Shown here in pieces: positions 11 to 15,510 of a DNA stretch of 15,510 bases. Position 1 is the stretch's first letter. Each line of letters begins with the position of its first letter. A program made the position numbers and the translations under genes. The DNA is taken from contig JAUXGG010000006.1 in NCBI GenBank assembly GCA_030622265.1, positions 1-15,510 of the forward strand. Reading direction: 5' to 3'. Below the pieces are notes generated by a model. It was not told the origin of the DNA. It did no database searches and saw only the letters and a program-made list of their open reading frames with translations. The stretch is from Candidatus Eiseniibacteriota bacterium (GTDB taxonomy: Bacteria; Arandabacterota; Arandabacteria; Arandabacterales; Arandabacteraceae).

Positions 11-244
11 ATGGATGTCAACGTTGACAAGACGCTGGACTGCCAGGGCCTTTCCTGTCCGATGCCCATCCTGAAGCTTGCCAAGGAGATGAAGGGCGTG
101 GATAGTGGGCAGGTTCTGGAGCTTCTGGGCACCGATCCGGGTTCCAAGGGAGACATTCCCGGCTGGTGCGAGAAGACCGGAAACGAGTTCCTTGGGTTCG
201 AAGAAGATGGGGGCGTGTACAAGTTCTATATCCGTAAGTCATGA
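11..244 (+). CDS. tusA: TusA-family sulfur carrier protein (first copy)
   Basis: This 77-aa protein has the TusA fold signature. The CPxP motif (C16-P-M-P19) provides the persulfide-carrying cysteine, followed by the family's D-P-G-S-K-G-D-I-P segment at about 42-50 and W52-C53-E-K-T-G. A second cysteine, C11, lies five residues before the catalytic one. TusA proteins accept sulfane sulfur as a cysteine persulfide from a rhodanese or desulfurase and hand it to DsrE-type or other acceptors in the cytoplasm. There is no signal peptide. GAGGTAAGGA lies directly before the ATG, although the spacing is tight. It sits 62 bp upstream of the YeeE-type permease, a very common pairing in which TusA is thought to receive the imported sulfur. 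Family assignment is firm; the partner is inferred from context. Confidence 0.93.
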   Translation: MDVNVDKTLDCQGLSCPMPILKLAKEMKGVDSGQVLELLGTDPGSKGDIPGWCEKTGNEFLGFEEDGGVYKFYIRKS

Positions 245-306
245 CCCTGGGAGACTACCTGGTCTAGCAAGATCGGGCATTGCTCACTTCGAGAAGGAGA
301 TCTTCA

Positions 307-1518
307 ATGGGAAACGATGAAAAGGGAGCCTGGCGCCAGTTGTGGGGCACATTCTTCGGCAAGACCTGGCCCATGTGGGCCGCAGGTATCTTGCTGGCCT
401 TGCTCAATGTCTGTCTGTTCCTCGTAAAATCTCCGTGGGGTGGAAGTGGTACATACATAAACTGGGGAGAGAACATCTATAGTATGCTCAAGGTGATCGA
501 CCTCCCCAACCTGAAACCCGTCCTATCTCACACGTACGGCCTCCTGGGGCTTCTTACCCTGCTCGGCGCGTTTGCGGGAGCGCTGATGGGGCGGGAGTTT
601 GCGCTGCGCATACCTCCCCCGGGAGAGATGCTCAAAGGGTTCGTGGGCGGCGTTCTCATGGCGCTCGGCGCGACCCTGGGAATCGGCTGCACGATCGGCG
701 GATTCTTAAGCGGGTGGGCGGCGCTCTCCGGTGGGGCCATCATCCTGGCGATAGGCTTTCTCGTGGGGACTTATATCGCCCTGCGCTATCTGTTCTGGGA
801 AATGGAGAACCTGCCCAAGATGAGCGCGGGCAAGAGTTATAACCTGCTGGCGGCAAAGGGACGCCGCGGCATATGGCAACCGGTGCTGGGAGTCATCCTG
901 GTGGTATTCCTGCTCATTGCTTTCGGACGGCATTTCCAGGATAACAACATCCTTGCCATGTTCGCGATTATTGGCCTTGTGATCGGGATCATTCTCCAGC
1001 GTTCCCGGTTCTGCATTGTGAGAGCTTTCAGGGAACCGTTCATGACAGGCGAATCCGAAGCCGCGCTCGGGGTGATGGTTGCGCTGGTCGTTGGGATATT
1101 CGGGTTCACCGTGATCAAGTACATGGGTGTGGGCACTTCAACGCCGGGTGCGGCCAGGGCTCTGGCCATGACCTGGGTCTACCCGCATTTCTGGGTCAAG
1201 GCCTTGATCGGCGGAACGATCTTCGGCCTCGGGATGACCGTGGCCGGGGGATGCGCCATAGGTACCATATGGCGGGCCGGAGAGGGACAGGTCAAACTCT
1301 GGTTCGCGGCACTCGGGTTCATGCTGTTTGCCCCCCTTTCGAAAAAGTTCATAGTTCCGGGGTTCACTCATATCCTTCCGGACTGGGCCCAGCAGAAAGT
1401 GTTTCTTCCCGACTGGTTCGGGTACTGGGGAGCGGTTCTTGTGTTCCTGATCCTGATCGTCCTCTGGTATGTGTTTGTCAAATGGAACGAGCGGACCGGC
1501 AGGTTCTCCGCCGTATAA
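307..1518 (+). CDS. YeeE/YedE-family sulfur-compound permease (TsuA-like)
   Basis: This 403-aa integral membrane protein has about ten hydrophobic stretches. It carries the three cysteine motifs of the YeeE/YedE family: G-I-G-C (C128) followed by T-I-G-G, R-F-C-I-V (C236) and G-G-C-A-I-G-T (C316). In the characterised thiosulfate transporter TsuA such cysteines line the path and relay thiosulfate. Family members are proposed to import thiosulfate or other sulfane sulfur and pass it to a cytoplasmic TusA, which matches the gene before it. The ATG at 307 is preferred because AAGGAGA ends 6 nt upstream; an in-frame TTG at 280 has no such site and would add a non-homologous arginine-rich leader. 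The next gene begins 12 bp after the stop, so co-transcription is likely. The substrate is not decided by sequence. Confidence 0.92.
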   Translation: MGNDEKGAWRQLWGTFFGKTWPMWAAGILLALLNVCLFLVKSPWGGSGTYINWGENIYSMLKVIDLPNLKPVLSHTYGLLGLLTLLGAFAGALMGREFALRIPPPGEMLKGFVGGVLMALGATLGIGCTIGGFLSGWAALSGGAIILAIGFLVGTYIALRYLFWEMENLPKMSAGKSYNLLAAKGRRGIWQPVLGVILVVFLLIAFGRHFQDNNILAMFAIIGLVIGIILQRSRFCIVRAFREPFMTGESEAALGVMVALVVGIFGFTVIKYMGVGTSTPGAARALAMTWVYPHFWVKALIGGTIFGLGMTVAGGCAIGTIWRAGEGQVKLWFAALGFMLFAPLSKKFIVPGFTHILPDWAQQKVFLPDWFGYWGAVLVFLILIVLWYVFVKWNERTGRFSAV

Positions 1519-1530
1519 GGTGAGGTGAGA

Positions 1531-2046
1531 ATGATGAGAGTACTTTCACTCATATCGTTGCTGGCTCTTCTTGCAGCGCTTGCCGGGTGTGGAGGTTCGG
1601 GGATCGAGGGTAGAGGTCCCGCGGCGTGCGCGGATGCCAAGGAGATGGTCGCCAAGGCGAAGGTGGGAGTAAACCAGATAGATATCGAGGAATTCAATGT
1701 ACTGATGGATAGCGATGAGTACTTTACCATCATCGACGTACGCGAACCTGATGAGTTCGATGAGGGCAGCATCCCCGGCGCGATCAATATCCCGCGCGGG
1801 GTTTTGGAGTCAAAGATCGCCAGTGCGAAGTACTGGGACAGCGAAGGCCTGTTCGTGCCCGAGAAGGACGAAGCCATGATCCTGTACGGGCACAAGATCG
1901 AGCGCGGGGTGCTTGCGGCGGAGTCGTTGGTGAAGCTCGGCTATAGCAATGTGAGGCATCTCTACGGGGGATGGGTGGTCTGGACGGAGGGCCCCGACGC
2001 CGTTGAAGTGGAAGAGGTGGAGGAAGAAGGCGGCTGCGGAGGCTGA
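1531..2046 (+). CDS. Rhodanese-like lipoprotein lacking the catalytic cysteine
   Basis: The 171-aa product begins with a short hydrophobic signal ending in a lipobox, L-A-G-C20, so it is probably a lipid-anchored periplasmic protein. A single rhodanese domain follows (about 60-155), with I-I-D-V-R-E-P-D-E-F and S-I-P-G-A-I-N-I-P as typical markers. At the active-site loop the usual cysteine is replaced by glycine (Y-G120-H-K-I-E-R125), while the arginine five residues on remains. It therefore should not act as a normal sulfurtransferase. The tail is acidic and ends in G-G-C169-G-G, which offers a different thiol. ATG at 1531 or 1534 are both plausible after GAGGTGAG; a GTG at 1525 overlaps that site and is less likely. 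It lies directly behind the permease and may dock or bind sulfur for it (inference). Confidence 0.85.
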   Translation: MMRVLSLISLLALLAALAGCGGSGIEGRGPAACADAKEMVAKAKVGVNQIDIEEFNVLMDSDEYFTIIDVREPDEFDEGSIPGAINIPRGVLESKIASAKYWDSEGLFVPEKDEAMILYGHKIERGVLAAESLVKLGYSNVRHLYGGWVVWTEGPDAVEVEEVEEEGGCGG

Positions 2047-2211
2047 TGGACCGGCCGGATGGTCGGACGGATGACAAATGAATATTGTGAAGAGAATGAG
2101 GTATTGGTAGAGCGGTGGATTGCAAGATGAGGAAGGGGGGAAGACTAGAGTTCCTGCGGTGGCCGTCTTCAAGCGAGGAGGGCCGGCCGTAACCAACTGA
2201 TTACAAACCAG

Positions 2212-2226
2212 GGACTCGATGAGTCC
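2212..2226 (+). other. Perfect 6-bp hairpin (possible leader structure)
   Basis: GGACTC and GAGTCC pair perfectly around a GAT triloop. There is no T-run after it, so it is not a standard intrinsic terminator. It lies 39 bp upstream of the double-rhodanese start codon and could structure that leader. Function is unknown. Confidence 0.3.
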
Positions 2227-2235
2227 ACGGCAAGG

Positions 2236-2257: not shown

Positions 2258-2265
2258 AGATTAAG

Positions 2266-3240
2266 ATGAAAAGCACGACCAGATATTTCCTGATCTTGTT
2301 GGCCCTGGCGGCCACGATCCTGGCCGGATGCTCCGAAAACACGAATGCGCCACCGGTCGGGGAGGGCAGTTTCGCCACCCTGAGAACGTATCTTATAGCC
2401 AATAATCTTGACCTTCCCGACATTCTCAGCAGTTGGACCATACTTGCAGTTGATGTGGAGCCAGATCCCTCATTATTCTACATAATAGATATCCGTGAGG
2501 AAGACGTGTATGACACGGGGCATATCCCAGGCGCCGTGAATGCCGAGCTGGACGACATCCTTGACTTCGCCGGCCAGAGCGGCGGGAAGCCCATAGTGGT
2601 CGTCTGTCTCACCGGTCAGGTTGCGGGTCATGCGGTGATGGCTCTCCGCCTGAGCGGATATGAGGATGCCAAGGTGCTGAAGTGGGGCATGAGCTCCTGG
2701 AACGGGGACTTCGACCTGTGGACTCCCAATACGGGAAGCATCGCCGTGGGTCACGCCAATTGGGTGGATGGTCCTGCCCCGGCGTCTGTCGGCCATGAGT
2801 ATCCCCTCCTGGTTACCATCGAGACCGAAGGGGCGGGCATTCTCGCCGAACGAGTTGATGCCATGCTCTCCGGTGGCTTCAAGGGAGAACCAGCTGGGGA
2901 CGTTCTTGAGACACCCGGCAACTATTTCATAAACAACTACTTCGAAGCCGATGATGTCACGACATACGGGATCATCGACGGTGCATACAGGATCTTACCT
3001 CTCAGTCTCGAGGACAATGAGTTTATGTACTATGACCCGGACGAGACCGTCGTCAGCTACTGCTGGACCGGTCAGACCTCATCGATGGTCACGGCGTACC
3101 TGACCATCCTGGGATATGACGCCAAGAGCCTCAAGTTCGGGACTAATGCGCTCATCTACAGCGAGCTGACTGCACACAAGTGGACCGCCTCGGCTGATTA
3201 CGACTACGAAACCACGACGCTGGCCTGGACGGCTAGGTAG
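2266..3240 (+). CDS. Double-rhodanese-domain lipoprotein
   Basis: The 324-aa product has a signal peptide with lipobox I-L-A-G-C22, so it is predicted to be a lipid-anchored protein of the periplasm or outer membrane. The first rhodanese domain spans about 40-165, with I-I-D-I-R-E-E-D-V-Y, G-H-I-P-G-A-V and catalytic loop V-C114-L-T-G-Q. The second spans about 200-310, with loop Y-C266-W-T-G-Q-T-S. Both catalytic cysteines are present, but both loops have Gln where many rhodaneses carry Arg, which suggests a shared variant substrate pocket. The residue pattern between the domains is not otherwise recognised. The probable role is persulfide transfer outside the cytoplasmic membrane, in series with the YeeE permease and the secreted sulfurtransferase downstream. 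Strong SD (AAGAGGAGA) before the ATG. Confidence 0.88.
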   Translation: MKSTTRYFLILLALAATILAGCSENTNAPPVGEGSFATLRTYLIANNLDLPDILSSWTILAVDVEPDPSLFYIIDIREEDVYDTGHIPGAVNAELDDILDFAGQSGGKPIVVVCLTGQVAGHAVMALRLSGYEDAKVLKWGMSSWNGDFDLWTPNTGSIAVGHANWVDGPAPASVGHEYPLLVTIETEGAGILAERVDAMLSGGFKGEPAGDVLETPGNYFINNYFEADDVTTYGIIDGAYRILPLSLEDNEFMYYDPDETVVSYCWTGQTSSMVTAYLTILGYDAKSLKFGTNALIYSELTAHKWTASADYDYETTTLAWTAR

Positions 3241-3248
3241 GGAGACTG

Positions 3249-3273: not shown

Positions 3274-3313
3274 TCAAGAGATTTAACCGGATAGTATGGT
3301 TCTAACCGCAGGT

Positions 3314-3345
3314 ACAGGGGAGTCTGAAGGCCTGAGATCCCCTGT
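3314..3345 (+). other. Stem-loop in the leader of the porin gene
   Basis: ACAGGGGA (3314-3321) and TCCCCTGT (3338-3345) form a perfect 8-bp stem. It can be extended inward by TCT/AGA after one bulged G, leaving a 9-nt loop. It ends a few bases before the porin ribosome binding site (AAAGGAG, 3348-3354). There is no T-tract, so it is more likely a 5' mRNA stabiliser, processing site or translational control element than a terminator. Confidence 0.45.
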
Positions 3346-3361
3346 CGAAAGGAGATTGAAG

Positions 3362-4438
3362 ATGAGGGATTCGTGGCTCTGGCTGCTGATCGCAATGCTG
3401 CTTCTTCCTGCAGCAGCTTTTGGACAGGGATGCATGGGAGGGGGATCCGAGGAAGGCGTCAATGTCGTAGGCTTTATTCAGCCGCAGTTCGAGTATTATC
3501 CGAATCCCGATTCCGACCAGGAAGAGCTTACGTTCTCTTTCTTGAGGGCGAGACTGGGGGTCGTCGGTGACGTCCCCTACGATATCAGCTATTACTTCGT
3601 GATGGAGTTCAGCCCATTCATGGCTGGTGAGCCCCCGTACATGCTTGACGCGTTCCTCACCTACACGCGTCTGTCATATGCCAATATCTCATTCGGGCAG
3701 TTCAAGCATCCTTTCAGCATGGAGCGAAACACCGCCTGTTCCGGGCTTCATACGATAAGACGGTCGATGGTCGTCAACAAGCTGGTGCTGGACAGGGACA
3801 TGGGCATAATGGCTCTTGGGAGCATTACCGAGGGGCTTGACTACCGCTTCGCCGTGATGAACGGGTCGGGGAGGAATTCAAGAGACGATAACAAGGATAA
3901 GGATATCGTCGGCCGCGTGATCTATGATGCTCTCCCTGCGTTGCGCCTTCTCCCGTTCCCTACACCGGTCGAGTGCCTGACCCTCGGCGCCGGGTTTGCA
4001 TCCGGCAGCTCCAAGGGTGAGGAGGAGGATGATCCGGATGCCACCAGGACGAGGTATGGCGGCGACTTCGAGGTCCGCTACAAGGACTTCCTCGCCCAGG
4101 GTGAGTATATATACGGCAAGGATGAAGGGGCCCATTGGGAAGGCGGCGGTTGCGGCGGCGATCCGGTGCTCGTGGAGGGATCTACCGAGAGCGATGGCTT
4201 CTTCGTCACGATGCTCTACACGACGGATTGGAACCTCGAGCCGGTCCTGAAGTACGAACGGTATGATCCGGACACCGAGGTTGAGGATGACATGTGGCAT
4301 TCCTGGACCTACGGGCTCAACTACTTCATGAATGACTGGACAAGGCTCCAGGTCAACTACATACGAAAGATAGAGGATTTCGTGCCTGCATATAATAATG
4401 ATCAGTTCCTTGTCCAGATGCAGGTGAAGATCCAGTAA
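3362..4438 (+). CDS. Porin O/P-like outer-membrane beta-barrel channel
   Basis: The 358-aa product has a signal peptide (hydrophobic to about residue 20, likely cut near A-F-G-Q). The rest is dominated by alternating beta-strand patterns with many aromatic residues. The segment G-Q-F-K-H-P-F-S-M-E-R, followed by I-R-R-S and R-D-M-G-I, is characteristic of phosphate-selective porin O/P relatives. The C-terminus (F-L-V-Q-M-Q-V-K-I-Q) is a strand but lacks a terminal aromatic residue. A glycine-rich loop carries G-G-G-C264-G-G. The start at 3362 has AAAGGAG 7 nt upstream and opens directly into the signal peptide; an earlier in-frame ATG at 3296 would add 22 residues before it. Its place between two exported sulfurtransferases suggests passage of an anionic sulfur compound such as thiosulfate or polysulfide, rather than phosphate (inference). 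Confidence 0.85.
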   Translation: MRDSWLWLLIAMLLLPAAAFGQGCMGGGSEEGVNVVGFIQPQFEYYPNPDSDQEELTFSFLRARLGVVGDVPYDISYYFVMEFSPFMAGEPPYMLDAFLTYTRLSYANISFGQFKHPFSMERNTACSGLHTIRRSMVVNKLVLDRDMGIMALGSITEGLDYRFAVMNGSGRNSRDDNKDKDIVGRVIYDALPALRLLPFPTPVECLTLGAGFASGSSKGEEEDDPDATRTRYGGDFEVRYKDFLAQGEYIYGKDEGAHWEGGGCGGDPVLVEGSTESDGFFVTMLYTTDWNLEPVLKYERYDPDTEVEDDMWHSWTYGLNYFMNDWTRLQVNYIRKIEDFVPAYNNDQFLVQMQVKIQ

Positions 4439-4486
4439 GTGTCGAGCGGTCACAGTGTTCGCAATCCGAAAGGAAGGAGGCCTGAT

Positions 4487-5353
4487 GTGAAAAAGTTTAG
4501 CCGGTACGCGGCTGTTCTCGTCATATCACTTCTTGTTTCGCAGGCTGCGCTCGCCCAGCTCGTCTCCGTGAGTGAACTGTCAGAGATGATGGAAAAGGGC
4601 GATGTGGTAGTGGTGTCGGCGAGGATACCCAAGGACTATGCGAAAGTGCATATCCCCGGCGCGGTCAATCTCTGGCACAAGGATCTCTATAAGGCTGGCG
4701 ACATCCAGGCCATTCTAAAAAGCCCGGAGGAAATCGCGGAAGTACTTGGAGGCCTGGGCATCAGCGCCGATGAGACGGTCGTCGTCTACGACAGCGGCAA
4801 GACCAAGTTCGCGGGGCGCATCTACTGGATCCTCAAGTATATGGGGGCCGAGGATGTCCGGTTGCTCGACGGGAACATGAAGATGTGGCGGAAGGGACGA
4901 AAGTCGGTGACCAAGGATGTGGCTGAGATCACGCCGGCCGAGTTCGTTGCTTCTCCGGTGGAATCGATCTACGCTTCGATCGACTATGTGAAATCCGGTC
5001 TGGGCAAAGAGGGTTTTGTTCTGATCGATGCCAGGGATGAAGACGAGTATAATGGCAAGAAGGGCGAGACGAAGCGAAAGGGACATATCCCCGGCTCGGT
5101 CCGCCTGGACTATGTGGAAGTCCTGAATGAGGACGGCACACTGAAGTCGAAAGACGACCTGGCCAAGGTCTTCTCCTTGGCGAAGATCACCCCGGATAAG
5201 GACGTGGTCATCTACTGCGAGACAAGCGTACGTGCGGGAATCATCTACCTGGCCTTGACCTCGATCCTGGATTATCCCAGAGTCAGGGTATATGACGGTG
5301 CGCTGTACGAGTGGTCCGCCGATGCGGGCAACGCGGTCGAAGCGAAGGACTGA
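4487..5353 (+). CDS. Secreted two-domain thiosulfate/3-mercaptopyruvate-type sulfurtransferase
   Basis: The 288-aa protein has a Sec signal peptide ending A-L-A23-Q. Two rhodanese domains follow in the classic arrangement. The first (about 25-140) is the non-catalytic one, with Asp at the active-site position (V-Y-D102-S-G-K-T-K). The second (about 155-285) has I-D-A-R-D-E-D-E-Y, G-H-I-P-G-S-V and the catalytic loop Y-C244-E-T-S-V-R-A. It should transfer sulfane sulfur from a donor such as thiosulfate to a thiol in the periplasm. The start is taken as GTG at 4487, with GGAGG six bases upstream, since this begins exactly at the signal peptide (M-K-K-F). An earlier in-frame GTG at 4439 would place a charged stretch in front, and the ATG at 4485 runs straight into a stop. 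Confidence 0.9.
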   Translation: MKKFSRYAAVLVISLLVSQAALAQLVSVSELSEMMEKGDVVVVSARIPKDYAKVHIPGAVNLWHKDLYKAGDIQAILKSPEEIAEVLGGLGISADETVVVYDSGKTKFAGRIYWILKYMGAEDVRLLDGNMKMWRKGRKSVTKDVAEITPAEFVASPVESIYASIDYVKSGLGKEGFVLIDARDEDEYNGKKGETKRKGHIPGSVRLDYVEVLNEDGTLKSKDDLAKVFSLAKITPDKDVVIYCETSVRAGIIYLALTSILDYPRVRVYDGALYEWSADAGNAVEAKD

Positions 5354-5379: not shown

Positions 5380-5739
5380 ATGGCAAAAACGGCAATCACG
5401 ATTAACGGTGCCGAGGGAAAGAATATCTTTCCCGCCGTCACCATAGCTGTCTCGGCGGCTGCGAGCGGTGACGAGGTCATACTCTTCTTCACCCCGGGCG
5501 GGGCGCCCGCGATGGTGAAGGGAGCGCTCGAGAAGCTGAATGAGGAGGCCAAGAACCTGCCCGACCTCATGGAGATGATAGAAGGCCTCGAGATGCTGAA
5601 CGCGAGGTTCCTGGTCTGCGAGCTCGCCTTTGCGGTGCACGGCTTCGGAGAAGAGGACCTCAGGAAAGGCGCCGAGGTTGTTGGCGCGACCACCTTTGTG
5701 GGTGCGGCCGACGGTGCCGGACTGACGCTTTCGTTTTAA
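5380..5739 (+). CDS. DsrE-like small sulfur-relay protein
   Basis: The 119-aa cytoplasmic protein resembles the DsrE/DsrF/TusD superfamily: an N-terminal strand (A-I-T-I-N), a helix rich in alanine, then G-D-E-V-I-L-F-F-T-P-G-G, and near the C-terminus V-V-G-A-T-T-F-V-G-A. A single cysteine, C80, in the segment R-F-L-V-C-E-L-A-F lies where DsrE2/DsrE3-type proteins hold their persulfide cysteine. Such proteins exchange sulfane sulfur with TusA, and a tusA gene follows only 32 bp downstream. ATG at 5380 follows GGGAG at 5366-5370 with slightly long spacing. DsrE3A-type partners of sulfur-oxidising Hdr complexes are one comparison, but which DsrE subgroup this is cannot be settled without a tree. 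Confidence 0.78.
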   Translation: MAKTAITINGAEGKNIFPAVTIAVSAAASGDEVILFFTPGGAPAMVKGALEKLNEEAKNLPDLMEMIEGLEMLNARFLVCELAFAVHGFGEEDLRKGAEVVGATTFVGAADGAGLTLSF

Positions 5740-5771: not shown

Positions 5772-5996
5772 ATGGCAACAGAACAACTCGATTGTTTGGG
5801 ATTGAAGTGCCCGCAGCCTATTCTGAAGGTCGTCGTGAAGATGGCGAGCATGCAGCCGGGCGACATCATAGAGGTATTGGCGGACTGTCCGTCTTTCCCT
5901 ACCGACATGAAGGCGTGGTGTGAGAAGACCGGCAAGGTCTTGCTCATGCTTTCGTCGGATGGAACAGGGAAGCATACGGCGCAGATCCAGCTCTAG
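5772..5996 (+). CDS. tusA: TusA-family sulfur carrier protein (second copy)
   Basis: This 74-aa protein has C13-P-Q-P16 as its persulfide site within the typical L-D-C-L-G-L-K-C-P-Q-P-I-L-K opening. Further cysteines are C8, C39 (A-D-C-P-S-F) and C50 (A-W-C-E-K-T-G). C39 replaces the D-P-G region of the first TusA in this window, so the two copies are clearly diverged paralogues and may serve different partners. It ends the sulfur block, directly behind the DsrE-like gene, and a TusA-DsrE pair normally forms a cytoplasmic persulfide relay. GGAGAGAGAC before the ATG gives a good ribosome binding site. The extra cysteine C39 could allow a disulfide or trisulfide with C13 or C50 (inference). Confidence 0.93.
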   Translation: MATEQLDCLGLKCPQPILKVVVKMASMQPGDIIEVLADCPSFPTDMKAWCEKTGKVLLMLSSDGTGKHTAQIQL

Positions 5997-6159: not shown

Positions 6160-6600
6160 ATGACTGAGAAACAGCAAGAGAGGGAATTCACGCCGAAGAT
6201 AGTGGGTTTTCTCTGCAACTGGTGTACATACGCCGCGGCAGATCTCGCGGGTTCGACCAAGCTCGAGATATCGCCGGCGCTCACCGTTATCAGGGTGATG
6301 TGCTCCAGCAGGGTGGACCATAACCTTCTCCTCACCACGTTCTTTGAGGGGGCGGACGGCATATTGGTAGCAGGCTGTCATCCCGGTGACTGCCACTACG
6401 GCAAGGGCAACTACTATGCCAGGCGCAGGTATGCGGTGCTGAAGAAGGTGATGGAAGGGTTGGGATTGGAACCGGAACGGCTGCAATTGTCATGGGTATC
6501 GGCATCGGAAGGCAACCGTTATGCCGACGTGGTGAACGCTTTTTCCGAGAAGATAAAGGCGCTGGGGCCGAACCCCATCAACGGTAGGTCCGATTTCTGA
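6160..6600 (+). CDS. mvhD: MvhD-family [2Fe-2S] electron-transfer subunit (module 1)
   Basis: The 146-aa protein is a full-length MvhD/FlpD (hydrogenase delta subunit) homologue. The cysteine ligands are all visible: F-L-C19-N-W-C22-T-Y, V-M-C48-S-S-R-V-D and G-C73-H-P-G-D-C78-H-Y. MvhD carries a [2Fe-2S] cluster and passes electrons between an input module (hydrogenase, formate dehydrogenase or similar) and HdrA. Here it precedes hdrA halves by 15 bp, the usual order. No hydrogenase genes are present, so electrons probably come from or go to the FrhB-like subunit further on. The Cys in C-S-S-R is a site where some relatives use selenocysteine; here it is plain TGC. Only one start is reasonable, but its AGGA is just 2 nt from the ATG, a poor spacing. 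Confidence 0.93.
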   Translation: MTEKQQEREFTPKIVGFLCNWCTYAAADLAGSTKLEISPALTVIRVMCSSRVDHNLLLTTFFEGADGILVAGCHPGDCHYGKGNYYARRRYAVLKKVMEGLGLEPERLQLSWVSASEGNRYADVVNAFSEKIKALGPNPINGRSDF

Positions 6601-7964: not shown

Positions 7965-9647
7965 ATGAAAGCGAAAATCGGAATATATGTCTGCGAGTGC
8001 GGTCCGAACATCGGCGAGACTATAGACATACCCAGGGTCCTGGAGACGATTCCGGCGCTTGAGGGCTATGAGGATGTCGAACTCGTCCCGAAGAGCTTCG
8101 GGCTGCTGTGCTCGCCGGCCGGCAAGGAATACCTCGCGAAAGAAATTACGGATAACGGGTTCACGCATCTGGTCGTAGCGGCCTGTTCACCCAGAGATCA
8201 TAATTCGACCTTCATAGGCGTATGCAAGGAAGCGGGACTCAACCCATATCTTTACAAGATCATAAACATCCGCGAACACTGCGGCTGGATAATACATGAC
8301 AAGGAAGCGGCGACGGATAAGGCGATCCAGTACATACGCAGCGGCATCAGCAGGGTTCTCTATCAGTCGGAGCTTTTCGAGAGACAGCTCGAAATAACCC
8401 CCGACGTGCTTGTGATAGGCGGCGGCATAGCCGGTATGGAAGCGGCGCTCTCGCTCGCCAGTCATGACCGGAAGGTCTATCTGGCGGAGAAGACGGGAGA
8501 ACTGGGAGGAAAGGCGGCCAGGTTCGCCTCGCTTCTTCCCCGCCAGGGACGGGGAGCGGACGTCATCAGGGAGAAGATAAAGGCGGTCGAAGAGAATGAG
8601 CATATCCGGGTCCATCTCAATACCGAACTTGAGAGTTCCATAGGGTTCCTGGGCAATTTCGAGGTCGTCCTGGCCGGTAACGGGGATGATGAGAAGACCG
8701 ATCTCAAGGTCGGGGCGATAATTATCGCCACCGGCTACCGGATGTCTGACCCGGGGAGTTTCACCGGCTATGAGTACGCCGATACCGACGAGGTCTATTC
8801 ATCGCTTGAGATTGAGAGAATGAACGGCGGCGAGGGAATCGCCCTGCGTTCAGGCGCCAAGCCCGCCTCGGTTGCGCTTATCCACTGTGTGGGCAGGCAG
8901 GAGAAGGGATACTGCTCCCGAATATGCTGCAACTACATGATGAAGATCGCGGGCTATTTCAAGAAGCAGTCCGGGGCGACAAAGGTTACGGAGTTCTTCT
9001 TTGATATGTGCCTGCCCCACAAGGCGGACCAGGAGTTCTTCGACCACTCGGTCGGCCTCGGCATCGATTTCAAGCGCGTTAAGGAAATCGGTCTCTCGGG
9101 CACAAGCGTCGAATTCGCAGAGACTGGCGGCGGGAAGCAGAAGATGGATTTCGACATGGTCGTTCTCGCTTCTGCGATGGAGCCGTCCGAGGATACGGAG
9201 GCGCTGGCCGGGCTTCTTGAGATCGATCTGGACGAGAGAGGTTTCTTCAAGGAAGCGCATCAGACGACCGATCCGGTTGCTACCTCGATTGACGGCATCT
9301 TCGTCGTTGGCGCTTCGCAGGGCCCCAGAGGCGTGTCCGATTCCATGCTCCTGGCCCAGGCGACGGCGGGGAGAATCCGTTGCCAGCTCAAGCCGGGAGG
9401 CAAGATAGTCCCGGAGGTGAAGGTCTCCGAGATCATGGAAGCTTATTGCACAGGGTGCAGAACCTGCCTGGAGGTATGCGGATACGGGGCCATCTATTTT
9501 GACGATCAGAAGGGGATATCGATAGTCAATGAGGCGGTATGCAGGGGGTGCGGGAATTGCTTCGGCAGTTGCCCGTCAGGAGCCCTGAGGACAAAGCACT
9601 TTACCAACAAGCAGCTCTACCGGGAGGTAACCGAGGCGCTCAAGTAA
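7965..9647 (+). CDS. hdrA: HdrA C-terminal half: CxCG domain, FAD domain and C-terminal ferredoxin
   Basis: The 560-aa protein opens with the HdrA hallmark G-I-Y-V-C10-E-C12-G-P-N-I, then V-V-A-A-C-S-P-R and the conserved G-L-N-P-Y-L-Y region. A thioredoxin-reductase-like FAD domain starts at G152-G-G-I-A-G157 and ends with G-I-F-V-V-G-A-S-Q-G-P. It contains C-V-G-R-Q-E-K-G-Y-C-S-R-I-C-C but no inserted ferredoxin. The C-terminus has two [4Fe-4S] motifs: C495-T-G-C-R-T-C-L-E-V-C505 and C526-R-G-C-G-N-C-F-G-S-C536-P. Together with the preceding gene it gives one complete double-FAD HdrA. The short 14-bp gap suggests coupled translation and a stable complex of the two halves. Electrons are expected to enter from MvhD or the FrhB-like subunit encoded on either side (inference). 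Confidence 0.93.
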   Translation: MKAKIGIYVCECGPNIGETIDIPRVLETIPALEGYEDVELVPKSFGLLCSPAGKEYLAKEITDNGFTHLVVAACSPRDHNSTFIGVCKEAGLNPYLYKIINIREHCGWIIHDKEAATDKAIQYIRSGISRVLYQSELFERQLEITPDVLVIGGGIAGMEAALSLASHDRKVYLAEKTGELGGKAARFASLLPRQGRGADVIREKIKAVEENEHIRVHLNTELESSIGFLGNFEVVLAGNGDDEKTDLKVGAIIIATGYRMSDPGSFTGYEYADTDEVYSSLEIERMNGGEGIALRSGAKPASVALIHCVGRQEKGYCSRICCNYMMKIAGYFKKQSGATKVTEFFFDMCLPHKADQEFFDHSVGLGIDFKRVKEIGLSGTSVEFAETGGGKQKMDFDMVVLASAMEPSEDTEALAGLLEIDLDERGFFKEAHQTTDPVATSIDGIFVVGASQGPRGVSDSMLLAQATAGRIRCQLKPGGKIVPEVKVSEIMEAYCTGCRTCLEVCGYGAIYFDDQKGISIVNEAVCRGCGNCFGSCPSGALRTKHFTNKQLYREVTEALK

Positions 9648-9671: not shown

Positions 9672-10835
9672 ATGAGCGACCCTGAAATGCAAGGGGCCAG
9701 CCTGAAGGCAGTGGACGGGATCAAGGGCGTCATACGCGATTTCCTGCGCAAGGCGCTGGAGAGCGAGGCGGCAGACGCCGTGCTGGTGCCGGTGAGGACG
9801 CCGGCCAAAGATTCCTACGCGTGGATCCTCACAAACGACCCGGCGCTCCTCGATGAGGCCGGCCCTCTGGCCCCCACTATGCCTGTCCAGGGGGCGAAGG
9901 CCTTGAAGAGTCTTACCAGGAAGGGACAGGGCACGGCCAGGGTGATCGCCGTGATGAGACCCTGCGAGGTCAGGGCGGCTGTGGAGCTCTCCAAACTCAA
10001 TCAGGTCCATCTGGACAATATCATCCTCCTGAGCTATGACTGCATCGGAGCCGTTCCTCTTCAAGACTATGTCGGGGAGCCTGCCGGTAGTGAAGAACGC
10101 TTTGATTCGATGCTTGAGGCGAGGAAGACCGAGGAATCCGCGGTGAAGCCCGTATGCGGGATATGCGTCGATTTCTCGCTCGTGGATTCGGATATTCACC
10201 TCGGCTTGATCGGGTTGGCGGGGGAATCGGCACTGCTCATCCCCAACAGCGAAAAGGGCGGGGCCCTGCTCGAGGCGATGGGAATTGCCTGCGAGGAGGA
10301 CATCTCCGGATGGATGCAGGCCGTCTCCGGACTCAAGGCCGAGCGAGAAGACAAAAGGAGCAAGGCGCTCGCAGAGACGGGGGCCTCTCTACAGGGCTTC
10401 GACGGACTTCATGCGGCTTTCGCCGATTGCGTCGGCTGCCATAACTGCCAGAGCGCGTGCCCGATCTGCTATTGCAGGCAGTGCTATTTCGATTCCGAGG
10501 TGGCCAGGCGGGACCCGGCCGCGCTTCTCGATACCGCGATCGCCAGGGGAGGCATTGCTTTCCCGGGGGACAGGGTCATGTTTCATACCGGAAGAATGGC
10601 GCATATGAGCCTTTCATGTGTCTCGTGCGGGCAGTGCTCGGACGCCTGTCCCGTCTCGATCCCGGTCGCCGATATCTTCAGTTACATGGCCGACCTGACA
10701 CAGGCGACCTTCGAATATGCGGCTGGAAGAGATGATGGAGAGCCGCTTCCCTTGAGGCAGTACAGGGAAGATGAGGTGGAGAAAGTGCATGAGATCGTGA
10801 AGGGTGCCGAGGAAGAGGAGGTGGCTCATGAGTAG
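9672..10835 (+). CDS. FrhB/FdhB-like iron-sulfur flavoprotein (module 1)
   Basis: This 387-aa protein matches the coenzyme F420 hydrogenase/dehydrogenase beta-subunit family. The markers are V-M-R-P-C98-E-V-R-A, D-C-I-G near 124 and V-C-G-I-C-V-D-F, all in the FAD-binding part. The C-terminal third has an unusually dense motif, C253-V-G-C-H-N-C-Q-S-A-C-P-I-C-Y-C plus C271, then a standard C316-V-S-C-G-Q-C-S-D-A-C326-P cluster. In methanogens such subunits oxidise or reduce F420; bacterial relatives next to hdrA and mvhD are less well defined and could use another hydride or electron carrier. Its last 8 bases overlap the start of a paralogue. Family confidence is high; the electron partner is unknown. 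Confidence 0.83.
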   Translation: MSDPEMQGASLKAVDGIKGVIRDFLRKALESEAADAVLVPVRTPAKDSYAWILTNDPALLDEAGPLAPTMPVQGAKALKSLTRKGQGTARVIAVMRPCEVRAAVELSKLNQVHLDNIILLSYDCIGAVPLQDYVGEPAGSEERFDSMLEARKTEESAVKPVCGICVDFSLVDSDIHLGLIGLAGESALLIPNSEKGGALLEAMGIACEEDISGWMQAVSGLKAEREDKRSKALAETGASLQGFDGLHAAFADCVGCHNCQSACPICYCRQCYFDSEVARRDPAALLDTAIARGGIAFPGDRVMFHTGRMAHMSLSCVSCGQCSDACPVSIPVADIFSYMADLTQATFEYAAGRDDGEPLPLRQYREDEVEKVHEIVKGAEEEEVAHE

Positions 10836-11922
10836 CATCAATCTTGATATGAGCGCTCCTGAAGGCGTCGTCGCTCTTCTTAAGTATCTGCTATCCTCCG
10901 GTAAGGTCACCGCCGTTCTTGTGCCGAGGAGAAATCCCGACACGGGGGCCTATGATATCGGGCTCATCGCAGATGAGGCCGGCCTCGATAGCGCGGCGCC
11001 CGTCGATCCCGTGATGCTCGCCAACACCGGTCAGATCCTCTCTTCGCTGACACCTGCGAAGAGGTCTCTGGCGGTCGTGCTAAAGCCGTGCGAGCTCCGC
11101 GCCTTCGTCGAGCGAGTCAAAAGGGAGCAGGGGGCCCTGGAGAATGTCCTGACCATATCCTATACCTGCGGAGGGGTTTTCCCCCTGGAGAAAGTAATAG
11201 GAGAATCCTTCGCGGACGTCATTCCAAATTACTTTAAGCGGGTTGGATCGGGCGAGGTTGTGGATGGGACGCGAGACACCTGCAGAGCATGTGAGCACTT
11301 CGTACCCATGAACGCCGATGTGACGATCTCGATAGCAGCCGACGCAGGTTCATCGTCCGGCTGCCGCATATATCTCAATACGGACCAGGCCAGGGAACTT
11401 GTGGGGGGACTCGAGGGGAAGCAATCGGATGATGAGTTCGATCCCGCCGTGACTCTGAAGCTGGCAGCCGGGCGAAAGGCGGAGAAGGAGAAACTCTTCA
11501 AGTCGCTCGCGCCCACCGGGGATGGGTTGGACGGGGTGATAGAGGTGTTCGGGAAATGCGTGGGATGCCACGGGTGCGGGCGCGTGTGTCCGATCTGCTA
11601 TTGCCTGCTTTGCGATTTCGAATCGCGGAGCTTCGACTATGATCTACCGTATTTCGAGAAGGAGCTCGCGGGTAAGGGAGCGCTCAGACTGCCGCCCGAC
11701 ACCATATTCTTCCACCTGGGCAGGATGATCCACATGAGTTTCTCTTGCGTCGGCTGCGGACTCTGCTCGGATGTATGCCCCGTGGGGATACCGGTGGCAT
11801 CCATGTTCAAGAAGGTGGGGGAACACACGGCGGCGCTTTTCGATTATGTGGCGGGGCGGGATGTCGAAGAGAAGCTCCCCGTGATGGTCTTCAAGGAAGA
11901 GGAATTCAGTGAGTTGGGTTAG
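10828..11922 (+). CDS. FrhB/FdhB-like iron-sulfur flavoprotein (module 2)
   Basis: The 364-aa protein is a paralogue of the gene it overlaps. It shares V-L-K-P-C88-E-L-R-A, T-C-G-G near 112, R-A-C-E-H-F and the C-terminal cysteine pattern C244-V-G-C-H-G-C-G-R-V-C-P-I-C-Y-C plus C262, then C307-V-G-C-G-L-C-S-D-V-C317-P-V-G-I-P. The start at ATG 10828 follows GAGGAAGAGGAGG and gives an 8-bp overlap with the upstream stop, which suggests translational coupling; an earlier in-frame GTG at 10804 would extend the overlap without a better site. Two divergent tandem copies could form a heterodimer, or each could serve its own HdrA (split and fused). Same family limits as its neighbour. Confidence 0.83.
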   Translation: MSSINLDMSAPEGVVALLKYLLSSGKVTAVLVPRRNPDTGAYDIGLIADEAGLDSAAPVDPVMLANTGQILSSLTPAKRSLAVVLKPCELRAFVERVKREQGALENVLTISYTCGGVFPLEKVIGESFADVIPNYFKRVGSGEVVDGTRDTCRACEHFVPMNADVTISIAADAGSSSGCRIYLNTDQARELVGGLEGKQSDDEFDPAVTLKLAAGRKAEKEKLFKSLAPTGDGLDGVIEVFGKCVGCHGCGRVCPICYCLLCDFESRSFDYDLPYFEKELAGKGALRLPPDTIFFHLGRMIHMSFSCVGCGLCSDVCPVGIPVASMFKKVGEHTAALFDYVAGRDVEEKLPVMVFKEEEFSELG

Positions 11923-11966: not shown

Positions 11967-12392
11967 ATGGATAAAGAGTTCACACCCAGGATAGCCGCTA
12001 TTCTCTGTCAGTGGTGTTCGTACACCGGTGCGGACCTGGCGGGGACGAGCAGACTTCAGTATCCGACATCGATCATAGCGATGAAGGTCATGTGTTCAAG
12101 CCGGGTCGACCCCGTTCTGCTCTTGAAGGCTTACCTAAGCGGCTCCGACGGTGTGCTGCTCGGCGGATGCCACCCCGGCGACTGTCACTATGAGGTAGGC
12201 AATTACCATACCCGGAGGAGGTTCGCGATCCTCAAGGCTGTATTCGATACCCTGGGGCTCGAGTCCGCCAGATTGAAGCTGTCCTGGATTTCGGCCTCCG
12301 AAGGGCCGAAGTTCGCGCAGGTGGCGAACGACTACACCGAAGAGATAAAGAAGATGGGAGAGAATCCCTCGAAGAAGAAGATGTTCCTCTGA
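11967..12392 (+). CDS. mvhD: MvhD-family [2Fe-2S] electron-transfer subunit (module 2)
   Basis: The 141-aa protein is a second complete MvhD. The cluster ligands are I-L-C14-Q-W-C17-S-Y, V-M-C43-S-S-R-V-D-P and G-C68-H-P-G-D-C73-H-Y. Along its length it is close to the first MvhD of the window (shared A-D-L-A-G, S-A-S-E-G and N-Y-x-x-R-R-R blocks), pointing to duplication within the cluster. GGGAGA six bases before the ATG is a good ribosome binding site, clearly better than that of the first copy. It lies 24 bp upstream of the fused HdrA, its expected electron partner. No Sec codon. Confidence 0.94.
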   Translation: MDKEFTPRIAAILCQWCSYTGADLAGTSRLQYPTSIIAMKVMCSSRVDPVLLLKAYLSGSDGVLLGGCHPGDCHYEVGNYHTRRRFAILKAVFDTLGLESARLKLSWISASEGPKFAQVANDYTEEIKKMGENPSKKKMFL

Positions 12393-12416
12393 TGGGGAGA
12401 ATGCAAGGGAAGGTCG

Positions 12417-15400
12417 ATGGGTAGCAAAAGCAAGAGTGTTGTTGTTGTCGGTGCGGGGATAGCCGGTATTCAGGCCTCTCTCGATCTGGCGGAGCTGGGG
12501 GTGGAGGTCCATCTTATCGAGGATACGCCCACAATCGGCGGGCGGATGCCCCAGCTCGACAAGACATTTCCGACCAATGACTGTTCCATGTGCATTCTCG
12601 CGCCCAAGATGAGCGAGTGCGCACGGCACCCCCGCATCACGATCCACATAAACTCCTCCCTCGACGCGATCTCGGGAGAGCCCGGGAATTTCAGGTGCAC
12701 GATTACCGAGAGGGCGAAATACGTCGATCCCGTGAAATGCGTTGCCTGCGGGCTCTGCGAGGAGAAATGCCCCGTCAAGGTCGATGACGTCTTCGACACG
12801 GGTCTTCGGAAGCGGAAGGCGATATCCCGGTATTTTCTCCAGAGCATTCCCGCCGAATACACGATCGACAAAGACAATTGCCTCTTCTTCACCAGGGGAG
12901 TCTGCAAGATGTGCGAGAAGGTCTGTCCCGCCGATGCGATCAACTACGAGGATCAGGACCGACAGCTGGAGCTCAGTGCAGGCGCCATAATCCTGGCGAC
13001 CGGCATCGATCCATTTAACCCGATCGGTTTCGGCAACTTCGGTTATCACAGGTTCGCCAATGTGGTCACCTCGCTGGAGTTCGAGCGTATACTCTCCGCT
13101 TCGGGACCGCTGGGCGGACATGTCGTGCGGGCTTCGGACAGTAAAGAGCCCAAGAGCATCGCGTTCATCCAGTGCGTGGGATCCCGCGATGAGAGTGTGG
13201 GAAAGAACTACTGTTCTTCCGCCTGCTGCATGTTCACCATAAAGCAGGCGATTATCGCGAAGGAGCATATCAAGGATCTCGAATCCACCGTCTTCTATAT
13301 GGACATCAGGGCATTCGGCAAGGACTTCGACAAGTACTACGAGAAGGCGGAGAAGAAATACGGCGTGGTGTTCAAGAGGTCCAAAGTCGCCGATATCGAC
13401 GAACTACCCGGCGGGAACCTGAGGCTCAGATACACCGAGGAGAACGGGGACATAAAGTACGGGGAGTTCGACATGGTCATCCTCGCTATCGGTCTCGAGG
13501 CCCGCGAAGGGAATCGTGTCCTTTCCGAGGAGCTGGACATAAAGCTGAATGAATTCGACTTCTACCGTTCCGACGCCTTCGGGCCTCTTGAGTCCACCCG
13601 GGAGGGGGTCTTCGTGTGCGGGGCCGCAAACGGGCCCAAGGACATCCCCGAGTCGGTGGTGTCGGCATCGGGTGCGGTGGCAAGCGCCGCGAAGTACCTC
13701 AAGCTCGAGCGTCAGGACATCGCCTCAGGGGACGAATCGGCGGCGGAGCTGGACATTAGGGGTGACAGGCCCCGGGTGGGGGTCTTTGTCTGCCACTGCG
13801 GGATCAACATAGCCGGCGTGGTCGATGTGAAAAATGTGGCAGAACACGCCGCCACCCTGCCCAATGTCGAGCATTCCGAGGATGTCATGTATGCCTGCTC
13901 CACCGACTGCCTGGAGACCATAAAGAAACGTATTAAAGAGCACGGCCTCAACAGGGTCATTGTCGCGGCGTGTACGCCGAGGACGCATGAGCCGCTCTTC
14001 AGGGAGACCATCGCCGAGGCCGGACTCAACCCCTATCTTTGTGAGATGGCTAATATCCGGGACCAGTGTTCGTGGGCGCACATGGAGGAGCCGGAACTTG
14101 CTACGGCCAAGTCCAGGGATCTCGTGGAGATGACGGTTGCGAAGGCGCGGCAGCTGAGCTCCTTAGAGAGACTACCTATCGATATAGATCCCCGCGCCCT
14201 GGTGATCGGGGGCGGATTGTCCGGGATGACCGCAGCGCTTTCCCTGGCCGAGGCCGGCCACGAGGTGTTCCTCGTGGAAAAGGAGAAGGACCTCGGTGGG
14301 AACATGCGGGACATCTTCTTCAACTTCGACAAGGCCGATCCACAGGCCTTTCTTGCCGAGACAATCGCCAGGGTCGAGGAGAATGAGAATATCCGGGTCT
14401 TCATGGCCGGCCGGATCGACGGCATAACCGGCTATGTCGGAAATTTCGAGACGACTATCAGCGGCGGGGGTAACGGCGATGCCGAGAAAGTAAAACACGG
14501 AGTCGTCATCGTGGCCACCGGAGGGGAAGAACACAAGACGGAGGAGTACCTCTACGGCAAGTCCTCGCGCATCGTGAGCCTCGTGGAATTCGAGAAGATG
14601 CTGAAGACCGGGAGCTTCCCTGCCGGGAGAATACGAAACGTCGTGATAGTGCAGTGCGTGGGGTCCAGGGAGGAGGGCAGGATGTATTGCAGCCGGGTTT
14701 GCTGCACGAAGGCCGTCAAGAACGCCCTCGAACTCAAGAAGGCAAAGCCCGCCGCAGACGTCTACTTCGCCTATCGTGATATAAGGACATACGGTTTCCG
14801 CGAGAAGTACTATACGGACCTGCGTGACACCGGGGCGGTTTTCCTGAGGTATACGCCCGAGACCAAGCCCGTAGTCAACATGGTCGATGAAACCAATCCG
14901 GACAGCCGGCTCAAGGTCACAGCCTTCGATCCGATTCTCGAGAAGGAGGTCGAGATCACGGCCGACCTGCTTGTTCTCTCCGTTGCGATCGACCCGCCGG
15001 ACGGCAATGTCCGGTTGGCCAAGATGCTCAAGGTGCCGCTGAATTCCGACGGGATGTTCCTGGAAGCCCACGTGAAGCTTCGCCCGGTGGATTTCGCAAC
15101 CGACGGCATCTTCGTCTGCGGGCTGGCACATAGCCCCAAGGACATGGATGAGTCGCTCGCCCAGGCGAAGGCGGCGGCAAGCCGGGCGCTGACCTTCCTC
15201 AACAAGAAGGCGATTCTCGCGGAAGGCACCATAGCCAGGGTCAGGGAAGACAGGTGTTCGGGATGCGCGTACTGCGAGTCGATATGCGCATATGCCGCGA
15301 TCGAGGTCGACCCCGAGAAAGAAGTAGCCGTGGTTAACGAGGCTCTCTGCAAGGGCTGTGGAGCATGCGTCGCTTCATGCCGGTGCGGGGCGCTCGACCT

Positions 15401-15479
15401 CTTAGGATTCAGCAATGAGCAGCTGTTCTCCGCCTTCGATTCCCTGGAGATGGTGATTACTGACGGGGGTGCAGACTAG
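12417..15479 (+). CDS. hdrA: Double-FAD HdrA, full fusion of both halves
   Basis: The 1020-aa protein is two HdrA-type flavoprotein units in one chain. Unit 1 (about 1-440): Rossmann V-G12-A-G-I-A-G17, D-C56-S-M-C59, an inserted ferredoxin with C108-V-A-C-G-L-C-E-E-K-C118-P and C155 plus C163-K-M-C-E-K-V-C170-P, then Y-C-S-S-A-C-C. Unit 2 (about 450-1020): V-F-V-C459-H-C461-G-I-N-I, V-V-A-A-C-T-P-R, a second FAD site G598-G-G-L-S-G603, Y-C-S-R-V-C-C, and a C-terminal ferredoxin with C947-S-G-C-A-Y-C-E-S-I-C957 and C978-K-G-C-G-A-C-V-A-S-C988. Classical methanogen HdrA has one FAD; this chain should hold two and at least four [4Fe-4S] clusters. It likely forms the hub between MvhD, the FrhB-like protein and an acceptor subunit not present here. 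The stop codon directly abuts the next start. Confidence 0.94.
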   Translation: MGSKSKSVVVVGAGIAGIQASLDLAELGVEVHLIEDTPTIGGRMPQLDKTFPTNDCSMCILAPKMSECARHPRITIHINSSLDAISGEPGNFRCTITERAKYVDPVKCVACGLCEEKCPVKVDDVFDTGLRKRKAISRYFLQSIPAEYTIDKDNCLFFTRGVCKMCEKVCPADAINYEDQDRQLELSAGAIILATGIDPFNPIGFGNFGYHRFANVVTSLEFERILSASGPLGGHVVRASDSKEPKSIAFIQCVGSRDESVGKNYCSSACCMFTIKQAIIAKEHIKDLESTVFYMDIRAFGKDFDKYYEKAEKKYGVVFKRSKVADIDELPGGNLRLRYTEENGDIKYGEFDMVILAIGLEAREGNRVLSEELDIKLNEFDFYRSDAFGPLESTREGVFVCGAANGPKDIPESVVSASGAVASAAKYLKLERQDIASGDESAAELDIRGDRPRVGVFVCHCGINIAGVVDVKNVAEHAATLPNVEHSEDVMYACSTDCLETIKKRIKEHGLNRVIVAACTPRTHEPLFRETIAEAGLNPYLCEMANIRDQCSWAHMEEPELATAKSRDLVEMTVAKARQLSSLERLPIDIDPRALVIGGGLSGMTAALSLAEAGHEVFLVEKEKDLGGNMRDIFFNFDKADPQAFLAETIARVEENENIRVFMAGRIDGITGYVGNFETTISGGGNGDAEKVKHGVVIVATGGEEHKTEEYLYGKSSRIVSLVEFEKMLKTGSFPAGRIRNVVIVQCVGSREEGRMYCSRVCCTKAVKNALELKKAKPAADVYFAYRDIRTYGFREKYYTDLRDTGAVFLRYTPETKPVVNMVDETNPDSRLKVTAFDPILEKEVEITADLLVLSVAIDPPDGNVRLAKMLKVPLNSDGMFLEAHVKLRPVDFATDGIFVCGLAHSPKDMDESLAQAKAAASRALTFLNKKAILAEGTIARVREDRCSGCAYCESICAYAAIEVDPEKEVAVVNEALCKGCGACVASCRCGALDLLGFSNEQLFSAFDSLEMVITDGGAD

Positions 15480-15510
15480 ATGAAGGACTGGCAACCCAAG
15501 ATCCTGGCCA
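15480..15510 (+). CDS. mvhD: Start of a probable third MvhD-family gene (cut by window end)
   Basis: Only ten residues are visible, M-K-D-W-Q-P-K-I-L-A. They match the opening of the two other MvhD proteins (F-T-P-K-I-V-G and F-T-P-R-I-A-A), just before the first cysteine pair. The ATG follows the hdrA stop without a gap (TAG then ATG), with GGGGGT some 10 bases upstream, so translation is probably coupled. The identification rests on this short match and on gene order. Confidence 0.6.
   Translation, partial: MKDWQPKILA

Follow-up and report, generated by a model that had tools for sequence, protein, structure and literature searches.

Why should genes for taking up and passing on sulfane sulfur stand in one run with genes for flavoprotein electron transfer? 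The question is raised by a contig of a Candidatus Eiseniibacteriota bacterium (JAUXGG010000006.1, here G000:C234), which was analysed over its entire length of 15510 bp (the window) and belongs to a metagenome-assembled genome (MAG) of 2.29 Mb that is 74% complete. The window carries 15 genes, all on the forward strand and with 219 bp as the widest intergenic gap, in the order TusA1, YeeE, RhoLipoA, RhoLipoB, porin, SseA, DsrE, TusA2, MvhD1, HdrA1, HdrA2, FdhB1, FdhB2, MvhD2 and HdrA3. By examining the conservation of this order in other genomes, together with a survey of sulfur marker genes, we hypothesize that the cluster encodes one unit, a soluble sulfane-sulfur (persulfide) reductase that is independent of the dissimilatory sulfite reductase (DSR) pathway and has its own outside-to-inside sulfur supply. 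We rate the probability of this hypothesis at about 0.55, slightly better than even.

Gene content of the window

The features of the window are as follows, with profile matches in brackets.

11..244, forward strand: TusA1, sulfur carrier with SCPMP motif (PF01206, 3.8e-27)
307..1518, forward strand: YeeE/YedE permease for sulfur compounds (PF04143, 1.9e-48 in two stretches; ATG 307 follows AGGAGA)
1525..2046, forward strand: RhoLipoA, lipoprotein of rhodanese fold without the active-site Cys, C-terminal GGCGG (PF00581, 9.2e-17)
2266..3240, forward strand: RhoLipoB, lipoprotein with two rhodanese-type Cys loops, VVCLTGQ and SYCWTGQ (PF00581, 7.4e-21)
3296..4438, forward strand: outer-membrane porin of Porin_O_P type with conserved cysteines (PF07396, 1.2e-15)
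4439..5353, forward strand: SseA-like exported two-domain rhodanese, active Cys in the second domain, YCETSVRAG (PF00581, 1.1e-36 in two stretches)
5380..5739, forward strand: DsrE-like sulfur carrier with one invariant Cys, CEL (PF13686, 1.2e-08; PF02635, 1.3e-06)
5772..5996, forward strand: TusA2, sulfur carrier with KCPQP (PF01206, 1e-18)
6160..6600, forward strand: MvhD1 (PF02662, 1.3e-50)
6616..7950, forward strand: HdrA1, first half of a split double HdrA (NCBIfam family HdrA2, 1.4e-109, below cut-off)
7965..9647, forward strand: HdrA2, second half, with C-terminal ferredoxin domains (solved HdrA 5odc_A, 6.9e-95)
9672..10835, forward strand: FdhB1 (profile A3 against 9t1s_M, E 2.1e-58)
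10828..11922, forward strand: FdhB2, a paralog 37% identical to FdhB1 (mechanical GTG start at 10804)
11967..12392, forward strand: MvhD2 (PF02662, 1.1e-46)
12417..15479, forward strand: HdrA3, double HdrA with FAD (NCBIfam family HdrA2, 8.5e-297 in three stretches, below cut-off)
15480..15510, forward strand: start of MvhD3 (by sequence), cut by the contig end after 31 bases and continued in loci L033 and L040

Pfam recognises TusA twice, Sulf_transp, Rhodanese in three proteins, Porin_O_P, DsrE/DrsE_2, and FlpD (MvhD) twice, and the same survey of matches and open reading frames (ORFs) yields three HdrA-type flavoproteins and two proteins of FrhB/FdhB type. The gene list, order and single direction given in a preliminary description of this DNA are thereby borne out. 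An Rfam search returned nothing. Misassembly was considered and rejected: the same-genus sister genome, Candidatus Eisenbacteria bacterium CSMAG_463 (L049), carries this gene set too, on two contigs whose ends match exactly over 127 bases, the full order stands on single contigs in other phyla (L050, L080), and GC content is even along the window (0.55-0.60).

In the electron-transfer half, residues 2-408 of HdrA1 align with 3-409 of HdrA3, and residues 2-552 of HdrA2 with 451-1004 of HdrA3, so that each of HdrA1 and HdrA2 is equivalent to one half of HdrA3 and the operon holds one split and one fused double HdrA, each accompanied by an MvhD and an FdhB. The two proteins earlier called FrhB-like are indeed present, although their type is more precisely that of the FdhB subunit: an FdhB profile of 40 rows (A3, which leaves out L082, L083, L089, L094 and L108) has matches to FdhB chains in methanogen Fdh-Hdr complexes of known structure, with E-values of 2.1e-58, 1.3e-50 and 3.2e-42, and 15 cysteines of FdhB1 are invariant throughout these rows. 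The CPxC[YF]C motif of these proteins was dismissed as a special feature, since the solved FdhB chains also have it. The window lacks FdhA and hydrogenase; none of its 15 proteins matches the CCG domain of HdrB in Pfam, nor does an HdrB profile find one, and none matches the lipoyl domain GCV_H. The reading of the locus as a variant is thus supported by the lack, inside the window, of HdrB, of a lipoate-binding protein and of extra DsrE-like genes beside dsrE.

Contig G000:C147 of the same MAG (L040) overlaps the window end over 757 bp at 95.5% and a sister contig over 929 bp at 98%, and continues with MvhD3, an FrhB-like protein, a Fer4_22 protein, an NAD_binding_1/DHODB Fe-S protein and HdrC; the absence of HdrC noted earlier therefore does not extend downstream. 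The Pfam names come from the proteins of a homologous locus (L044) and include Complex1_51K, NADH_4Fe-4S, 2Fe-2S_thioredx and NAD_binding_1; further genes there encode an FrhB_N/FrhB_C protein, a 2Fe-2S thioredoxin-like protein and a Complex1_51K protein. Named by Pfam, the downstream genes would make up a Flx/NuoEF-like NADH block with HdrC. The first gene downstream is present in 16 of the best 80 loci described below. L044 and L040 diverge immediately before MvhD3; for this species, the precise junction was therefore read from the gene order conserved elsewhere. G000:C147 is 98.2% identical to the sister genome but only 95.5% to the window end, although both contigs belong to one MAG, which accordingly seems to mix strains.

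Conservation of the cluster across lineages

The preliminary description had allowed that the two blocks might be neighbours in this genome alone; instead, their linkage recurs in many phyla and appears in both directions of search. A profile search of genome contigs with the FdhB alignment gave 538 confirmed relatives, of which the best 80 were analysed; as this sample favours close relatives of FdhB1, a search starting from DsrE was added. The HdrA1-HdrA2-FdhB1 module occurs in 49 of the best 80 loci. Among the 40 module loci with at least 300 bp upstream of MvhD1 (nine with less stay outside the count), 35 have TusA2 at most 2 kb upstream of HdrA1, accompanied by DsrE in 28. Neither DsrE nor TusA2 was found in the 31 non-module loci, several of which are short; one of these (L084) has a TusA1-like match on the opposite strand. 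By record title, the 35 loci represent 11 named bacterial lineages (Eisenbacteria, Krumholzibacteria, KSB1, Fermentibacteria/Aegiribacteria, Latescibacterota, Cloacimonadota, Delongbacteria, Aminicenantes, WOR-3, Mcinerneyibacteriota and Spirochaetales) as well as archaea (Thermoplasmata/'Euryarchaeota'), and three titles read merely 'bacterium'. None of the 80 record titles names a cultured isolate, that of TCS62 (L058) giving no indication either way.

All five exceptions (L053, L054, L061, L062 and L065) come from genomes that carry a TusA2 of 63-67% identity elsewhere: three have a second DsrE-TusA2-MvhD-HdrA1 locus (L145, L147, L149), one has DsrE-TusA2 at a contig end (L148), and in one the opposite end of the Hdr cluster carries TusA1-YeeE-DsrE-TusA2 (L146). 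The module copies without TusA in L062 and L065 (both Cloacimonadota) adjoin HdrC-HdrB-HdrA-MvhD and genes that by eye resemble 2-oxoacid oxidoreductases; with such other neighbours, the module may serve other partners too.

The left block (YeeE, porin and three rhodaneses) is found in L050, L059, L068, L075 and L080, and a TusA1 ortholog adjoins YeeE in L050, L059, L064, L071, L075 and L080, the TusA1-YeeE pair having shifted downstream in L064 and L071. In L151 the import genes lie within the electron block (HdrC-TusA1-YeeE-RhoA-RhoB-FrhB-NuoE-NuoF), and in a Dehalococcoidia locus (L086) HdrA2 and FdhB1 are separated by YeeE and a weak match to TusA. Gene distances co-vary over 27 loci (Mantel r 0.54-0.89, 0 of 2000 permutations for each of 15 pairs; L049, L102 and L108 left out), a correlation of which shared ancestry can yield a part. 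A YeeE ortholog is present in both genomes of the window's genus and in none of six others of its family, order and class; this suggests a patchy distribution of the cluster and, probably, its transfer between lineages.

Searched against 386 genomes, the DsrE profile matched 49 at 1e-8. Only the nine at 78 bits or above were judged; two of them are the window genome and its sister, and about six are new relative to the FdhB sample. All nine have HdrA genes beside DsrE, and eight also TusA (not L188). No HdrA was seen in 21 lower-scoring DsrE loci, where flanks reached only about 1.5 kb. Four loci (L188-L191) form a more distant subtype with the order DsrE-(TusA)-MvhD-HdrA-HdrA, MvhD not being seen in the L188 stretch. 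Given the 35/40 adjacency, the TusA2 genes elsewhere in the remaining five genomes and the result of the DsrE-first search, a chance neighbourhood of the two blocks was rejected.

Sulfur markers in cluster genomes

Marker genes were sought in 34 cluster genomes (the window's, those of 32 of the 35 TusA2 loci, without L063, L070 and L077, and that of L086), with nine Desulfobacterota-type genomes as controls. No cluster genome has DsrA or AprA over the cut-off, as against five and six of the nine controls, respectively. An HdrB-like ORF lies in 5 of the 49 module loci, compared with 15 of the 31 other loci. In the sister genome (L154, G098:C423), which has no DsrA over the cut-off, DsrC adjoins a membrane protein and an Fe-S protein that on visual inspection resemble DsrMK.

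The cluster genomes, among them Eisenbacteria, Krumholzibacteria, Cloacimonadota, Fermentibacteria, Aminicenantes, WOR-3 and KSB1, are thus without the usual sulfur markers DsrA and AprA above cut-off, and should the cluster provide their sulfur pathway, these lineages escape any survey that scores dsrAB, aprA or sHdr markers. The cross-phylum linkage suggests a little-studied way of living on sulfur.

Proposed function and alternatives

In the reductase that we propose, sulfur (polysulfide, S0 or thiosulfate sulfur) would enter through the porin, be picked up by SseA and RhoLipoB, be held by the GGCGG arm of RhoLipoA and be carried across by YeeE, and would then pass from TusA1 to DsrE and on to TusA2. 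The persulfide on TusA2/DsrE would replace the heterodisulfide (or DsrC, in the case of Flx-Hdr) as high-potential acceptor of an HdrA-MvhD-FdhB complex, which would release the persulfide sulfur as sulfide, while the downstream Flx/NuoEF-like block would give electrons from NADH. Homology further suggests that ferredoxin may be reduced by flavin-based bifurcation; if this is true, electron bifurcation extends to protein-bound persulfide. Beyond the single unit, we tentatively consider that the cluster may represent a widespread, uncharacterised sulfur respiration of uncultured anaerobic bacteria and archaea, in which TusA/DsrE persulfide is the terminal acceptor of a bifurcating HdrA-MvhD-FdhB complex in place of heterodisulfide and HdrB, with NADH electrons, a GGCGG-arm relay, and porin and YeeE relay sites that hold selenocysteine in some Cloacimonadota; taken with all these parts, this broader proposal falls somewhat short of even odds.

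The direction of the reaction is the weakest step, and oxidation is a serious rival. Arguments for reduction are the NADH-type block, the absence of DsrA and AprA for sulfite and of HdrB and LbpA, and a precedent in D. vulgaris, where DsrC interacts with FlxABCD-HdrABC (PMC10504309). In oxidation of sHdr type, TusA/DsrE persulfide would instead be turned into sulfite on the Hdr-like complex, with electrons going to NAD+ or ferredoxin, and the NADH block could run toward NAD+ reduction. sHdr clusters likewise hold rhodanese, TusA and DsrE genes (PMC6067878). This rival meets the difficulty that no CCG and no GCV_H match occurs in the 15 window or 8 L044 proteins (the rest of the genomes was not searched for GCV_H), that HdrB is so rare near the module, and that neither AprA nor DsrA over the cut-off is there to handle sulfite in the 34 genomes, other sulfite-oxidising enzymes having lain outside the search. 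We regard oxidation as unlikely, while taking it more seriously than any other alternative. The question for the bench is a direct one: does TusA2-persulfide oxidise or reduce the complex?

Several observations weigh against a DSR-independent reductase. Below the cut-off, the 34 genomes contain three weak DsrA and 20 weak AprA matches; DsrC is present in five of them, including the sister Eisenbacteria genome (six of nine controls); and YeeE is found in 16 and missing from 18, so that the import half appears optional. Absences rest on incomplete MAGs, the window genome included; a lone absence means little, and the pattern across 34 genomes means more. In the distant subtype, HdrC-like matches occur in L188, L189 and L191, Pfam identifies a CCG-domain HdrB in L188 and L191 (with a look-alike in L189), and L189 (772-2058 and neighbours) carries a Fer2_4-Fer4-GCV_H (lipoyl-domain) fusion beside NuoE/NuoF-like genes. 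These distant relatives, which also speak for oxidation, look like a bridge to sHdr, and the type seen in L189 is a possible NADH-linked relative of it. Finally, the sole published reading that we found of a similar cluster, from Cloacimonadota, is oxidation driving a reverse tricarboxylic acid cycle (PMC8542988).

Two further explanations were weighed. TusA and rhodaneses also serve biosynthesis, and the window could therefore hold two unrelated adjacent operons, one for biosynthetic sulfur supply (thiolation, Fe-S clusters) and one for Hdr electron transfer, which would also suit the lack of YeeE in more than half of the cluster genomes. The adjacency kept over 11 bacterial lineages and archaea, the import genes embedded in the electron block and the DsrE-first result make this hardly credible. 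Sulfur disproportionation, in which a YTD cluster would supply a DSR pathway running in reverse and the Hdr block would act as electron link, is improbable, if a little less so: YTD clusters include yeeE, tusA and a dsrE-like gene (PMC12998232, PMC13293266), and Desulfurivibrio dismutans co-localises a porin, lipoprotein sulfurtransferases and YeeE (PMC12142623), but the two further DsrE-like genes of YTD (CHP/DsrF and DsrH) are not beside the window's dsrE, and DsrA and AprA over the cut-off are wanting in all 34 genomes.

Relation to known systems

The cluster shares parts with several described systems. Like sHdr, it combines an Hdr-like flavoprotein complex with adjacent TusA, rhodanese and DsrE-type carriers; unlike sHdr, the window has no hdrC1B1A-hyp-hdrC2B2 layout, HdrB or LbpA, and has MvhD and FdhB. 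Strict sHdr membership was rejected because HdrB and LbpA are missing from the window, though the sulfur carriers are there. With YTD clusters (yeeE-tusA-dsrEFH type II) it has yeeE, tusA and a dsrE-like gene in common, and differs in its single DsrE gene and attached Hdr block; strict membership was likewise rejected, as the two extra DsrE-like genes do not adjoin dsrE and no cluster genome has DsrA over the cut-off. FlxABCD-HdrABC and HdrABC-FdhAB/MvhADG complexes resemble it in HdrA, MvhD and FdhB and, by Pfam names only, in the Flx-like NAD-binding and Fe-S proteins and HdrC downstream; the window departs from them in lacking HdrB, FdhA and hydrogenase, in its two double HdrA units (one split), and in the sulfur carriers of the operon.

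The outer half has precedents in YTD and in Desulfurivibrio dismutans, whose locus places porin, lipoprotein sulfurtransferases and YeeE side by side; that organism has DSR, and the part consulted mentions no Hdr block there (PMC12142623). The join of both halves, which the preliminary description called undescribed, had already been glimpsed in one Cloacimonadota MAG: in Ca. Stygibacter, the genes for an exported sulfurtransferase, TusA and a sulfur transporter share a cluster with Hdr genes, which was read as oxidative (PMC8542988; our locus L070 is titled Ca. Stygibacter frigidus). That report concerns one MAG and one related genus, and its consulted part makes no mention of other phyla, DsrE, FdhB or a GGCGG tail. 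Neither the cross-phylum cluster itself nor its DsrE-TusA2-MvhD-HdrA core, DSR independence or GGCGG-tailed lipoprotein was found described in the open-access literature searched.

Sulfur-relay proteins

RhoLipoA ends in ...EEEGGCGG, and among its orthologs (n=8) the GCG of the tail is invariant (8/8), whereas the rhodanese Cys is present in 3/8. A GGCGG-type terminus is confined to RhoLipoA among ORFs of at least 80 aa in the loci scanned, and is absent around four further relatives (G290, G051 and G368 at 110-138 bits; G243 at 61). In an AlphaFold model built on 8 sequences, with a mean predicted local distance difference test (pLDDT) of 74 and a predicted template modelling score of 0.63, blocks within residues 41-150 reach pLDDT 77-93 and the last 13 residues (161-173) lie below 50, as would be expected of a flexible arm. 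SoxY likewise has a carboxy-terminal GGCGG, whose cysteine binds the sulfur substrate (PMC6067878); the tail of RhoLipoA has the motif of this swinging arm, here on what is by Pfam a rhodanese-fold lipoprotein and no Sox protein.

Cysteines are conserved in other carriers as well. Both loop cysteines of RhoLipoB are conserved in 6/6 alignment rows, window included; KCPQP[IV]L of TusA2 occurs in 35/35 orthologs; and the CEL Cys of DsrE is invariant in 28/28 rows of alignment A2 (C79 there, in a row without start Met; L075, L102 and L108 left out) and in 30/30 genes, a 31st listed ORF being the N-terminal piece of the split L108 gene. The stretch SseA-DsrE-TusA2 has no space for another gene. 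For SseA, the mechanical start is GTG 4439, and a GTG at 4487, following AGGAGG, precedes the signal peptide. All matches of YeeE (query 310-1515 in the searches) to NCBIfam YedE/TsuA fall below the cut-off. In the porin, two cysteines are kept in the 8/8 rows that cover them, one in QGC near the mature N-terminus and one before LHT/LYT, which is unusual for an outer-membrane barrel. In KSB1 and in two Cloacimonadota records (L059 15760-16095; L068 15698-16048, by Pfam; L080 15803-16162), the space between HdrA3 and MvhD3 holds the gene for a second DsrE-family carrier, with an ACGGC motif, and a 71% match to it occurs also in the Ignavibacteria locus L083.

Candidate selenocysteine sites

When the window and L044 proteins were aligned to the loci, 33 stops fell on a cysteine of the query, and all 33 are TGA: 31 at one site in MvhD genes, one in YeeE and one in the porin (both L059). 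The MvhD site is the cysteine of (L)VAG/VGG-C-HPGDC, which is Cys in the window; it is TGA in L058, L059, L060, L063, L064, L066-L072, L119, L122, L127, L149 and L151, and other Cloacimonadota MvhD genes (L062, L065, L077) are unbroken. MvhD/VhuD is known with selenocysteine, and the MvhD codons are probably selenocysteine as well. In L059 the YeeE codon (1838) is at the AGGC cysteine, kept as Cys in L068, and the porin codon (4450) at the GGGCGG cysteine; L068 has a porin TGA one residue beside that site (3623). The YeeE and porin reading frames are open on both sides of the TGA in these two Cloacimonadota records, whose products are possible new selenoproteins. SelB exceeds the cut-off in the genomes of L059 and L068, yet does so in 14 of the 20 genomes searched, and RNA folds after six in-frame TGA stretches were no better than shuffles (z -1.55 to +0.37). 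Selenocysteine at these positions, if real, marks the YeeE, porin and MvhD cysteines as reactive relay sites.

Neighbouring regulator-like genes

ORFs that by eye resemble ArsR-type regulators lie directly upstream of the cluster in L053 (6153-6416), L061 (727-990) and L147 (5637-6035); in Hyphomicrobium, ArsR-type repressors that respond to sulfane sulfur govern sulfur oxidation (PMC12423496, PMC10451225). Proteins of PAS/GGDEF type, possible sensors, are encoded near the DsrE-TusA2 genes in L145 (by Pfam) and in L147, L187 and L188 (by likeness).

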